This document shows positions 6,945 through 62,205 of a stretch of 64,000 bases of DNA, piece after piece. Position numbers and translations under genes: made by a program. A model generated the notes under the pieces. That model saw only the letters and a list, made by a program, of their open reading frames with translations. It searched no databases and was not told where the DNA came from. The DNA is from Desulfobacteraceae bacterium. GTDB lineage: Bacteria; Desulfobacterota; DSM-4660; Desulfatiglandales; Desulfatiglandaceae. Location: NCBI GenBank assembly GCA_030613055.1, contig JAUWMR010000018.1:1-64000 (forward strand). The letters run 5' to 3'. Position 1 is the stretch's first letter. The number at the start of each line of letters is the position of its first letter.

Positions 6945-8117
6945 TTATCCCTTCACGGAATTTTTAATCACATGCACTTTACCGGCAATACAGGACAGTC
7001 CATGATAGCTTTTCAGTTTTTCAATGCCGGAGCCGGTCATTTCCGTATTGACGGGCATGACAAGGGCTCCGGTTTTCATTCTCACGTCACTTGCGAGCAT
7101 CATGCCTTCCTCAAGGTCGTCTAAGGCGATTTCAAGGAAATCCTTTTCTCCTTCTTCCTGTATCTTTTTCAGGTTGATTTCCAGCAGATAGTCAACAATG
7201 GCAGGATCGAGTTGATATCCGCTCATCTGCTTAAGCCTGTCCGGGATGTCTTCAAGAGATATCTTCCCCTTGTGTACAAGATTATCGTACGCTACCGCCG
7301 CGGAAACAATCCTTGCCGGGAGGGGTATTTCATCACCTGCCAGGCGATCGGGGAAACCGCGACCGTTGAATTGTTCATGATGCGCCCTGACCAGTTTTGC
7401 GACAGGCCGTAAAAAGTCGATCTCATTCAGGACGATCTCCCCCTGTACAGAATGGGACATGTATATCTCCTTTTCATCCCCGTTCATTTCCGTTCTTCTT
7501 TTGGATAATAATTCGATTGGAAAACCAACCATGCCGACGTCGTGAAGCAGTCCCGCGGCCTCAAGAACAGGAAAATCCTGTTCGGATACGTCAGGATGCT
7601 GCGCAGCCATCTCAATGACCAGTTCTCCTACCCTCCTGCAATGTCCACCTAATTCCTCGTTAAATACCTCAAGCAGGTTTGTAAACATATGGATAGTCTG
7701 AAAATAGTTCTTCTTTATTGCATCATATTTATTGGTGAGTTCCCTTTCCAATCGCACAATTCTGGCGCCGATCTCAATGCGAGCATGCAACTCCTCAAAA
7801 TCGACCGGTTTGGTGATGTAATCATCAACCCCCGCTTCAAGACCGCGGACAACATCCTGTTTTGAGTCCCTTGCGCTCAGGAGTATGAGATATATGTAGC
7901 TTGTAAAGCCTGCATCGCGTATTCGCTTGAATAACTCCGGACCGCTCATTTCGGGCATCATCCAGTCGCTGAGAACTATGTCAGCGGGAGATGCCTTGAG
8001 CTTTGCCCAGGCTTCCATTCCGTTTTGTGCCGTATAAACGTCATAGCCCCACTCCCCGAGTTTTTTTTCCAATAAGCTCAGTGTTACCTGGTTGTCTTCC
8101 GCAACAAGAATATTCAT
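6945..8117 (-). CDS. Response regulator with degenerate HD-GYP domain
   Basis: A 390-residue protein with an N-terminal receiver (1-120, Asp51 in SDWMMPEMSG), a short coiled linker, an HD-GYP-like domain (about 140-325) and a C-terminal extension. HD-GYP proteins normally hydrolyse c-di-GMP. The His-Asp pair (192-193) and His-His (246-247) are present, but the family signatures are altered: HDxGK is HDVGM, the DGxGYP box reads NGRGFP, and the metal-ligand Asp of the VADxxDAL box appears as Val in SAAVAYDNL. Activity is therefore doubtful; it may act as a sensor. It leads the motA-motB operon, linking it to motor control. Confidence 0.85.
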   Translation of the reverse strand: MNILVAEDNQVTLSLLEKKLGEWGYDVYTAQNGMEAWAKLKASPADIVLSDWMMPEMSGPELFKRIRDAGFTSYIYLILLSARDSKQDVVRGLEAGVDDYITKPVDFEELHARIEIGARIVRLERELTNKYDAIKKNYFQTIHMFTNLLEVFNEELGGHCRRVGELVIEMAAQHPDVSEQDFPVLEAAGLLHDVGMVGFPIELLSKRRTEMNGDEKEIYMSHSVQGEIVLNEIDFLRPVAKLVRAHHEQFNGRGFPDRLAGDEIPLPARIVSAAVAYDNLVHKGKISLEDIPDRLKQMSGYQLDPAIVDYLLEINLKKIQEEGEKDFLEIALDDLEEGMMLASDVRMKTGALVMPVNTEMTGSGIEKLKSYHGLSCIAGKVHVIKNSVKG

Positions 8118-8144
8118 TCATCACCACCATCATCTCTTCTAAAT

Positions 8145-8314
8145 TTAACGGCTTCGCAAAAAGTCGAAAAGTACGTCATTGCGAGCCCCGCATCAAGTGC
8201 GGGATAAACTCCGCGAAGCAATCTCATTGGCTGTAACAGCTTGAAATCAGGAGATTGCTTTGCCGCTTCGCTCCTCGCAATGACATGTGAAATGACTTTT
8301 TACGAAGTCATCAA
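8145..8314. repeat. Family-1 inverted-repeat element, copy B
   Basis: A 170-bp element, the inverted near-identical twin of 55-224, directly upstream of the REC/HD-GYP-like gene. Its ends are TTAACGGCTTCGCAAAAAGTC and the complement of TTGATGACTTCGTAAAAAGT. Together the two copies enclose the whole 8-kb motility block as a large inverted repeat pair. Confidence 0.85.
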
Positions 8315-8849
8315 ATTTAGACATAGTTAAACGGTTAAGTAGTTGAGTTGTTATATTAAATTGCATGTTTTGTGCCAGGGCGGATTAGCTGTATCATCTC
8401 AATATTTAGGGGTATAGCTCATGGATTCCCGCCGTAGTTTATCCCGCACTTGATGCGGGGCGGGAATCCAGCAGGTTGGTATGCAAAGGCACTTACCCCG
8501 ATTTATTGAGCTTTTAACAAAATATTACCGTATCTTTTCAATGTATTGGGGTAACTCCTTTGGTTCACTAATTTCTCTGGATTCCTGACTACAAAAGGGA
8601 TTTACACCAATTTGTTGAGCAGATACAAAATATCCAATATCGAATGTCCAATGTCCAATTCTCAAGTTTTTCGATTGATATTGGTCATTGGATATTGGTC
8701 ATTGGATATTAGTTTCCCTTTATATTGAGCAGTTACGGCTAAACATATAAAATTTCATCTGATTCAGTTGTATTAATGGTCAGAATGCATATAAATTGAG
8801 TCGGCGTATTGACGGGCTGTCAAAAAAATGGCAGGAGTGGAGCAGTTCT
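8315..8849. repeat. Gene-free stretch with repeat fragments
   Basis: A 535-bp region without a gene. Positions 8394-8470 form a repeat (AATATTTAGGGGTATAGCTC followed by a CCGCACTTGATGCGGGG hairpin). It reappears inverted at about 23090-23165. Positions 8636-8712 carry degenerate tandem units of CCAATATC/CATTGGATATT that fold back on themselves. Nothing coding is visible. Confidence 0.7.
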
Positions 8850-9242
8850 TCAGGGTGAAACGCTGTATTGGGACAGAATTTTCTTTTGTCTTCTTATATA
8901 ACCGTCAAGATTATTAATTAAATCCTTCAACCCTGAATAATCTTCTTGTTTAGCACAAGAACTCAATGCAATGCCGGCATCTGTGACATACTCAAAACCA
9001 TATGATTTTCCTGAACCTTTCAGTTGATGCGCAACTTTGCGTATCTCCATCATATTTCTGTCTTCAAGATGCTTGATAAGCGGATCAATTTTTCGCGAAA
9101 GATCAAAAAAATACTTATCAAGGAGCTTCGCGGCCTTCTCAGGACCGAAAAGCTTCCCCATGTATGTATTCAGCAACCGGTTTTCCTCATCTGTCGAGCA
9201 TCTATTTTTATCAATGCATTTCAGATTTTCCGTCTCAATCAT
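8850..9242 (-). CDS. HPt domain protein
   Basis: A 130-residue single-domain phosphotransfer protein, the second in the window. The HPt core spans about 25-125 with the motif KVAHQLKGSGKSYGF carrying phospho-acceptor His72. It differs clearly from the first HPt (246-563), with an N-terminal tail of about 20 residues containing two Cys. It is transcribed away from the hybrid kinase at 9993, with a short cysteine-rich ORF between. The partner kinase is unknown; the hybrid kinases of this region all end in, or contain, receiver domains that could feed it. Confidence 0.85.
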   Translation of the reverse strand: MIETENLKCIDKNRCSTDEENRLLNTYMGKLFGPEKAAKLLDKYFFDLSRKIDPLIKHLEDRNMMEIRKVAHQLKGSGKSYGFEYVTDAGIALSSCAKQEDYSGLKDLINNLDGYIRRQKKILSQYSVSP

Positions 9243-59552: not shown

Positions 59553-61835
59553 TTATACACTAAAGCCTTTTTCCTTTATTCTGTTTGCCTGTTTTGCATC
59601 AATCAACTTTGCTATAATCTCTTGAGAGCGATTTAGCCGCATGGAAATCGTTTCGAAAAGGTGTTTGGTAACTTCCGGATACTTCTCGATGATTTCAGGA
59701 AGTTTATCTCCCGGAAAACGTTTTATCATCGACTTTCTTCTTGAAATCACGGTTATAGTCCTTGGCTCACCAGTAATGGCAGCCATTTCGCCAAAATATT
59801 CCCCATGTTTTACAATTTCGCCCGCTTTCTTGCCGTTTTTCACGACAATCAAAGCTCCTTTGATAAGCTGGAAAAAATCTGAGTCCCTGTCGCCTTCTCT
59901 AAAAATCACATCATTATCTTCGAAAGTCTCAGTGTCCGGGTTGATAAGATAAGCGGGGACAGCCTGTTTTGTCATGACCGTTCTCTTGACGACCTCTTCA
60001 ATTGAGGTTATACCCTGGCGAATTTTCTCCAATCCCGCCTCTCTCAATGTGACCATCCCCTCTTGTATAGCCACTTTTCTCAGTTGATCCTCAGGAATAC
60101 CGGCATTAATTGCTTTTCCAATTTCATCGGTTATTTCCATAATCTCATAGAGACCAACTCGCCCTTTATACCCCGTGCCATTGCATTTACTGCAACCTTT
60201 AGGTTCGTATATGGCAAGGCTCGGAATTTCGTCCCTGGAAAATCCCAACCCTTCCAGTTTATCAGGGGAAAGGTCTTCAGCCGGAATCTTACACTCCGGG
60301 CAGAGTTTTCTTGTTAAGCGTTGAGAGAGCACCATTGATACCGAAGAAGCCAGCAAATAATGGGGCATCCCGATATCTACAAGGCGTCCTATTGTGGAAG
60401 GGCAGTCATTTGTGTGAAGGGTACTGAAAACGAGGTGCCCGGTCATGGCCGCTCTAATGGCAATTTCGGCCGTATCCATGTCCCTGATCTCGCCTACCAT
60501 AATTATATCAGGATCCTGGCGTAAAAATGCCTTCAAAGCCGCGGAAAATGTCATACCTACATCTTCATTGACATTGACCTGGTTGATTCCCCTGAAGTTA
60601 AACTCTACTGGGTCTTCTGCCGTCAGTATTTTGACATCTTCTTTGTTAAGCAAATTGAGGACAGAATAAAGTGTTGTTGTTTTGCCGCTGCCTGTGGGTC
60701 CGGTTACAAGCAGCAGGCCATAAGGTCGGAAAATACAACGTTTCAGGATTTCAAGGGCCTTGTTTTCTAAACCCATTTTTCTAAGATCAATATTAAGCGA
60801 ACTCTGATCAAGGACACGCAATACCGTACCCTCACCAAAAAGTGTGGGTAAAGTTGAGACCCGAAAATCAATCACCTTTCTTTTTCCAAATCTCATCTTG
60901 ATCCTGCCGTCCTGAGGAACGCGACGTTCGGCGATATTCATACCGGACAGGATCTTCAGCCTGGAGATTATAGCATTTTTTATACTGAGCGGCAGGTTCA
61001 TGGATTTGTAAAGGGAGCCATCCAGTCTGTATCTTACCTGCAGGACTTTTTCAAAAGGCTCAATATGGATGTCACTGACCCCTTCATTAATCGCTTTAAA
61101 TAGAATGCCGTTTACCAGTTTGATGATGGGTGCGTCGCCGGCCGAGTATTCTTCCACTTCATTGGTATTTCCAATAAGTCCGGCCGGTTCTATCTCCACA
61201 ACAGCCTCGGAAACCAGAGACCCAATGTCATCAATTACTGTAACCGGTTGATCATCTTCGTCCTCTTTTTCTTTTATACCAAAAAATCCGCTGTATTGTT
61301 CATCAGTTATCTTATAATGTGTCCTGTATGCTTCAACGATATCCTTTTCAGCGGAGACATTGACTTTCAGGCTCATATGTACTTCATTCTGTAAATCAGC
61401 GACCGCAGAAGTATCAGTCGGTTCGGCCATAGTAATTTCAAGATCTTCCCCTTTTATTTTTAGTGGAAAGGCCATATACTTTTTGGCCATTTCATAGGGC
61501 AGGATCTTAAGGGCCTCCGGATCAGGGGTAGTTTTGGATATCATTACACCACGATAGCTGTGAATGCGGCTTAAGACATTTACAATAGTTTCTTCCTCGA
61601 TGTATCCCAACCTGATAAGTATGCTGCCTAATCGGCCCTTATTTTTTTTCTGATAGTTCAGGGCATCCTGAAGATGGGTACGGGTAATATAGCCCTGTTT
61701 GCACAGAATCTCGCCGATTTTGGTCTTGCCCGCTCCGGATTGATCCTTGATAGTGGCCTTCAGGCTTGATTTACTTGACATATTCCTCTTGAAAGGTGCC
61801 GTGTATATATTGGATTTTTGTTTAGCCATCTTCAA
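59553..61835 (-). CDS. GspE/PilB-type ATPase with C-terminal cyclic-nucleotide-binding domain
   Basis: A 760-residue secretion/pilus ATPase. N-terminal MshEN/GSPII_E domains (about 38-170; KIGEILCKQGYITRTHLQDA) can bind c-di-GMP in relatives. The motor (about 235-625) has Walker A GPTGSGKTT (about 379-387), an IIMVGEIRD Walker B, and the CPEC...CSKC zinc site. After it comes an added cNMP-binding domain (about 640-745) with the phosphate-cassette sequence FGEMAAITGEPRTITVIS, which retains the Gly-Glu and Pro-Arg-Thr residues of functional cAMP sites. No pil/gsp partner genes are nearby. ATG 61835 or the in-frame ATG three codons on. Confidence 0.92.
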   Translation of the reverse strand: MKMAKQKSNIYTAPFKRNMSSKSSLKATIKDQSGAGKTKIGEILCKQGYITRTHLQDALNYQKKNKGRLGSILIRLGYIEEETIVNVLSRIHSYRGVMISKTTPDPEALKILPYEMAKKYMAFPLKIKGEDLEITMAEPTDTSAVADLQNEVHMSLKVNVSAEKDIVEAYRTHYKITDEQYSGFFGIKEKEDEDDQPVTVIDDIGSLVSEAVVEIEPAGLIGNTNEVEEYSAGDAPIIKLVNGILFKAINEGVSDIHIEPFEKVLQVRYRLDGSLYKSMNLPLSIKNAIISRLKILSGMNIAERRVPQDGRIKMRFGKRKVIDFRVSTLPTLFGEGTVLRVLDQSSLNIDLRKMGLENKALEILKRCIFRPYGLLLVTGPTGSGKTTTLYSVLNLLNKEDVKILTAEDPVEFNFRGINQVNVNEDVGMTFSAALKAFLRQDPDIIMVGEIRDMDTAEIAIRAAMTGHLVFSTLHTNDCPSTIGRLVDIGMPHYLLASSVSMVLSQRLTRKLCPECKIPAEDLSPDKLEGLGFSRDEIPSLAIYEPKGCSKCNGTGYKGRVGLYEIMEITDEIGKAINAGIPEDQLRKVAIQEGMVTLREAGLEKIRQGITSIEEVVKRTVMTKQAVPAYLINPDTETFEDNDVIFREGDRDSDFFQLIKGALIVVKNGKKAGEIVKHGEYFGEMAAITGEPRTITVISRRKSMIKRFPGDKLPEIIEKYPEVTKHLFETISMRLNRSQEIIAKLIDAKQANRIKEKGFSV

Positions 61836-62205
61836 AAATGTGGGTTTATAATTCAGGGTTTCAGTCAGGATTGTATGTTAATTTCAAAATTATCTTTCAT
61901 CACATCCTTGCAGATATATCCTAAAACCCTGTTTTCAACAGGGCTATATATCAATAATCGGCAATTACCGGGAAAACTTTACCGTATTTGCTCGAAATAT
62001 CGGGGATAACAATACACCGCAGAGACGCAGAGTACGCAGAGTACGCAGAGAGATAGTATTTGGTAACTGTTTACGGCCCACTGTAGGAGCGGCTTTAGCC
62101 GCGATTTTCAAATGGCATCAATGTCCGAGGTCGCGTCTAAAGCCGCTCCTACAGTAGGTTTACGATTAAACCGGTGAACTATTAGGCGGAAAATAGCCCC
62201 AATGG
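61836..62205. repeat. Spacer with hairpin, tandem and REP-like palindrome
   Basis: Contains CCCTGTTTTCAACAGGG at 61927-61943 (a hairpin in the leader of the GspE-like gene) and tandem ACGCAGAGTACGCAGAG at 62022-62052. A REP-like palindrome lies at 62081-62155: CTGTAGGAGCGGCTTTAGCC against AAAGCCGCTCCTACAG. A short ACCGGTGAACTATTA motif at 62171 recurs at 19240. No gene is seen. Confidence 0.7.

Follow-up and report, generated by a model that had tools for sequence, protein, structure and literature searches.

A PilB-type ATPase with a C-terminal cyclic-nucleotide-binding domain in sulfate reducers: a possible messenger input to the pilus motor

In Pseudomonas, cAMP controls type IV pili through the transcription of pilus genes in the Pil-Chp/Vfr system (PMC11656802). 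Direct control of PilB-type motors by a nucleotide messenger has been described for c-di-GMP, acting at the N-terminus (PMC11656802), and in Vibrio MshE the Gln residues of both half-sites contact c-di-GMP (PMC5013675). The cassette of domains that bind cyclic mononucleotides (cNMP) has the consensus G-E-X-A-L-X4-P-R-A-A-T-V (PMC13326385). A literature search, with most subscription journals outside its coverage, gave no paper describing a cyclic-nucleotide-binding domain (CNBD) on PilB or GspE. Such a protein is encoded in the window, the 64,000-nucleotide stretch of Desulfobacteraceae DNA analysed here. Its architecture is well supported as real and conserved and is apparently undescribed in the literature searched; its function is put forward below as a proposal.

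The minus strand at the locus is uninterrupted and forms a single open frame, while the plus-strand reading of the same interval contains stops throughout. Translation probably starts at the ATG rather than at the TTG six nucleotides upstream, because a Met-Ala/Pro start is conserved among homologues. The encoded protein has the domain order MshEN-T2SSE-CNBD from N- to C-terminus (Table 1). The initial annotation had described a pilus ATPase with an added cyclic-nucleotide-binding domain after the motor, and this is borne out by the open frame, the Pfam domains over their cut-offs and the predicted CNBD fold. An assembly chimera was rejected because full-length orthologues with 57-78% identity are present in tens of independent assemblies, including those of cultured type strains. 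The neighbours in the window encode RNase J, FtsK, a LolA-like protein and a VWA/CoxE protein, none of which is a pilus part. The upstream intergenic region (62040-62190), read directly, holds an approximate inverted pair, GTAGGAGCGGCTTTAG / CTAAAGCCGCTCCTAC, and short tandem CTCTGCGTA units. A promoter and terminator scan around the gene found sites no more numerous than in shuffled sequence, and a plasmid collection held no record covering 80% of the fused protein.

Table 1. Features of the fused gene in the window. Residue numbers are counted from the TTG; the tetracysteine positions given in the text follow the 758-aa numbering.
Feature	Coordinates	Strand	Residues	Basis and remarks
Fused pilB-CNBD open frame	59553..61835	-	760 codons from TTG	probable start ATG 61829, giving 758 aa
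MshEN half-site motif I, KIGEIL...Q	61650-61721	-		NF053729 and motif analysis; motifs I and II together 61563..61721
MshEN half-site motif II, RLGSIL...I	61563-61634	-		NF053729 and motif analysis; last Gln replaced by Ile
MshEN C-terminal subdomain	61305..61541	-	99-177	Pfam PF05157, 40.7 bits, cut-off 23.1
T2SSE/PilB ATPase core	59988..61142	-	232-616	Pfam T2SSE, 453.7 bits; TIGR02538 over cut-off
Walker A, GPTGSGKT	60678..60701	-	379-386	
Cyclic-nucleotide-binding domain	59679..59930	-	636-719	PF00027 cNMP_binding, 52.3 bits, cut-off 27.5
Phosphate-binding cassette, FGEMAAITGEPRTITV	59748..59795	-	681-696	E683 and R692 kept; Ala two residues after Arg replaced by I694
B/C helices predicted to follow the beta roll; in a CNBD it is usually these that move	59568..59711	-	709-756	DSSP on models

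Within the order (85 genomes) the fusion is found in 8 genomes belonging to 7 genera. These are the only genomes of the order with a PilB over the TIGR02538 cut-off, and all nine matches carry the CNBD. When the CNBD was searched against 84,980 species genomes, at least 45 further fused loci (L035-L079) were added, some of them pieces ending at contig ends. Named members are Desulfobacter latus, Desulfopila aestuarii, Desulforhopalus singaporensis, Desulfobulbus rhabdoformis and D. alkaliphilus, and among the matches listed one fused locus lies in a Nitrospinota contig. A PilB over the cut-off is present in 208 of the phylum's 394 genomes; among the matches listed most frames have the unfused length of near 570 aa, and 12 of the 27 phylum genomes inspected individually carry the fusion. 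The linker to the CNBD begins at the end of T2SSE, where unfused PilBs stop. Phylogenetic analysis, which had been proposed as a check on the fusion, placed 58 fused rows on one side of one branch of the tree of the shared region (SH-aLRT 100; quick search, no bootstrap, imperfect outgroup). The CNBD was thus apparently joined once to the C-terminus of a native PilB, in an ancestor of many sulfate reducers; with the fused proteins forming one clade in this quick tree, repeated independent fusion is needless for the sampled set. One deep fused member (L183, G266:C52) has a 948-aa open frame with a long Pro/Ala-rich tail following the CNBD, and one genome has two copies of the fused gene (L034, G076:C174, and L030, G076:C22), one of which runs off the contig end.

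The CNBD modelled separately with AF2 gave a mean pLDDT of 90.7. The model matches the cGMP- or cAMP-bound domains of MlotiK1, PKA-RI, HCN and SthK (Foldseek; VIA), the best VIA match being the MlotiK1 CNBD (Z 14.7, rmsd 3.7, 107 residues). Matches by sequence are headed by PKG and PKA-R domains, and the sequence is closer to the PKG/PKA/HCN type than to CAP, so that of the "CAP-type" domain in the initial annotation the CNBD is retained and the type is revised. A transcription factor of the CRP/FNR kind was rejected: the CRP model is not passed (34 vs 266 bits), and no DNA-binding domain was matched after the CNBD, where helices run to the C-terminus. The full-length model has a pTM of 0.44 and a linker of low confidence, consistent with a CNBD hinged on a flexible linker. 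Because of the low pTM, it was not used to derive a contact between CNBD and ring.

All 62 fused members keep the cassette Glu (ribose) and Arg (phosphate). In 51 of them the Arg is followed by Ser or Thr, which would permit cGMP besides cAMP, compare the PKG and HCN domains. The second residue past the Arg is Ala in 58 members, and the four exceptions, Ile694 in the window, Arg in L134, Glu in L051 and Thr in L070, cluster together in the tree (support 90). The common cassette of the family, FGEMxAIxGEPRSAS, follows the cNMP consensus (PMC13326385), while that of the window departs from P-R-A-A-T-V by having Ile694 in place of the small Ala. The family's cassette therefore looks sound as read from the alignment. 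Competence of the window's own cassette, which had seemed apparent at first reading, holds as far as the invariant Glu and Arg are concerned but is doubtful overall, because the Ala is lost in the window and three close relatives, some of the latter with unusually fast-diverging CNBDs. In this branch the pocket may have another affinity or another ligand than is normal for the family. For the corresponding residue of PKA-RI, A211 (two after the cassette Arg), a search for published affinity data gave only the mention of an A211D mutant structure.

The loss of the Ala in this branch, together with the unusual divergence of some of its CNBDs, is read here as a changed constraint on the CNBD, that is, weaker binding, another ligand or loss. 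In the last case the domain, at least in the window's branch, would no longer answer to a cyclic nucleotide and would be a module for structure or protein docking, which localises PilB or connects it with a partner. Four different residues in one position would fit such a module, as would the CNBD identity of L051 and L070, which at 49% for an ATPase identity of 79.5% is the lowest of 466 comparable pairs, and the presence of the cAMP-independent trypanosome PKA-R among the structural matches. A purely structural role does not, however, obviously need the invariant Glu and Arg or an Ala kept in all but four members, and the CNBD identity between the window and L134 is ordinary (76.9% vs a band mean of 74.9%). 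A docking role is therefore considered somewhat unlikely. It is less probable still that the CNBD binds a ligand other than cAMP or cGMP, such as a nucleoside or, as in Clp, c-di-GMP. Other ligands are known for CNBD folds, the structural matches include the c-di-GMP-responsive Clp and a residue near the cassette Arg is altered in the window's branch, but the fit of the common family cassette to the cNMP consensus and the lead of PKG and PKA-R among the sequence matches speak against it.

At the other end of the protein, the 53-residue c-di-GMP motif NF053729 (NCBIfam) is passed with 63.5 bits (cut-off 38). The Gln of the first half-site is present in the window protein and that of the second is Ile. 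With the relaxed half-site pattern (24 residues each, with a polar residue (Gln) at position 24; PMC5013675) both half-sites fail, motif I solely through a Cys in position 7 (core) and motif II by ending in Ile. In the fused family the decay of the half-sites runs in opposite directions: the second Gln is absent from the window and from many Desulfobacterales members, whereas many Desulfobulbales have lost the Leu/Gln of the first half and kept the second Gln. Binding of c-di-GMP by the window's MshEN is plausible from the motif, and the earlier expectation that this domain can answer c-di-GMP is upheld by NF053729 but not by the half-site pattern. Integration of two signals is put forward tentatively, because a ligand-contacting Gln is Ile despite the c-di-GMP model being passed.

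The motor itself scores as PilB. The PilB equivalog TIGR02538 (NCBIfam) is passed with 726 bits (cut-off 675.65) and the GspE model TIGR02533 is failed with 555.5 bits (cut-off 630.25), so that the GspE half of the original GspE/PilB label, and with it an identity as type II secretion (T2SS) ATPase, is rejected. Walker A and B, the Asp box, the His box and the tetracysteine zinc site are all present, the last being invariant (C510, C513, C546 and C549). Geobacter PilB is the nearest solved structure by both sequence and fold, with 55% identity in the core (Foldseek). In its own genome the protein is the sole match over the PilB cut-off. This genome also contains two T2SS loci and one Msh-like locus, each with its own ATPase adjoining the platform protein, a type IVa-like PilC beside a histidine kinase without an adjoining ATPase, and a PilT/PilU pair. 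Another ATPase of this genome (L129, G000:C25:14000-32000, ORF 7267-9153 minus) has a C-terminal response-regulator receiver-like domain, which makes it a second case of a motor joined to a signalling domain.

A full-length PilT is found next door in 27 of 30 sampled unfused pilB loci. No PilT or PilC adjoins any fused gene in the loci examined (up to 10 kb per side), the window genome's PilC and PilT/PilU being located elsewhere, and a pilus-operon context was therefore rejected. In Desulfobulbales the fused genes are near nifS/nifU/thyX-like or fhs/folD/cooS-like genes (names assigned by inspection of the sequences rather than by a family scan). One fused pilB (L035:195-2522) directly follows a second T2SSE ATPase with a GAF-looking N-terminus, as read by eye. 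Adjacency to PilT/PilC, which is usual in the phylum and not required for function, is not seen; membership in PilB is based on sequence. On this basis the window protein is, with somewhat better than even confidence, a type IVa pilus extension ATPase whose tail carries a cyclic-nucleotide input, and it would drive the lone PilC of the genome. The same PilC type (C21-type) is present in about 70 of the 85 genomes of the order and the fused PilB in 8; most relatives must then run this platform with another ATPase, and the PilC was rejected as a co-occurring partner since it does not track the fusion. That the protein instead drives another filament or secretion system (T2SS or Msh-like) would suit a gene outside any pil operon in a genome with several ATPase paralogues, but is very improbable given its PilB score, the failed GspE cut-off and the ATPases already adjoining the platform proteins of both T2SS loci and the Msh-like locus.

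Both kinds of messenger are plausible in the window's genome because it encodes class III cyclases (5 PF00211 matches) and GGDEF proteins (5 matches); it also has 19 cNMP_binding matches. With class III cyclases in 82 of the order's 85 genomes, cyclase presence does not follow the fusion and is uninformative as a correlate. A conserved locus in related genomes (L214, G037:C12, L215, L216, L217 and L218) ties a cyclase to a different pilus-type ATPase, one ending in a zinc ribbon. Its neighbours there are a type IV pilin-like gene (N_methyl) and genes for a B-box protein, a PAS protein, a CHASE2-protein kinase and an FHA-GAF-class III cyclase (L214 by domain scan, L215-L218 from the order and starts of their ORFs).

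With the fusion shared by many sulfate reducers, the pilus motor may be a direct target of a cAMP- or cGMP-type signal. In the proposed mechanism the N-terminal MshEN would dock to the platform or stator and might sense c-di-GMP, while the T2SSE ring would hydrolyse ATP and act on PilC. Six CNBDs would be arranged on flexible linkers along the C-terminal edge of the ring. cAMP or cGMP made by class III cyclases would bind the cassette, and the bound cassette would close the B/C helix, which would shift the ring between a poorly extending and a fully extending state or alter its affinity for the platform. Ligand binding, the identity of the ligand and the coupling to the motor are what we infer. 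The full reading, a sulfate-reducer clade of pilus extension motors gated post-translationally by a C-terminal mononucleotide messenger and by N-terminal c-di-GMP, with the hexamer integrating both, is given a probability of roughly 0.35. If the sensor works, a mononucleotide messenger could act on pilus extension at once. Cultured strains in the fused clade make purification of the proteins feasible, and the window's branch with its altered pocket offers a natural comparison for the canonical members.

Compared with known systems, the fused protein resembles PilB of Geobacter (PDB 5TSG/5TSH, 6OLJ) and Myxococcus in the MshEN/GSPII N-terminus, the T2SSE core and the motor and zinc motifs (Walker A/B, Asp/His boxes, tetracysteine site). 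Sampled unfused PilBs of Desulfobacterota end right past the T2SSE core, whereas the fused family has about 140 extra residues forming the CNBD. With MshE and other c-di-GMP-regulated MshEN ATPases the window protein shares a 53-residue motif over the NCBIfam cut-off, but it has Ile for the second half-site Gln, and a CNBD in addition. The CNBD is like those of PKG, PKA-R and HCN/SthK/MlotiK1 in its fold, the cassette Glu/Arg, the Thr/Ser after the Arg and the C-terminal B/C helix; it differs in that the effector is a pilus motor ATPase and, in the window, in the Ile that replaces the Ala two residues after the Arg. The system shares with Pseudomonas Pil-Chp/Vfr the control of type IV pili by a cyclic mononucleotide, which in the fused family is proposed. 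In Pseudomonas cAMP acts on transcription, whereas in the fused family the sensor domain belongs to the motor itself.
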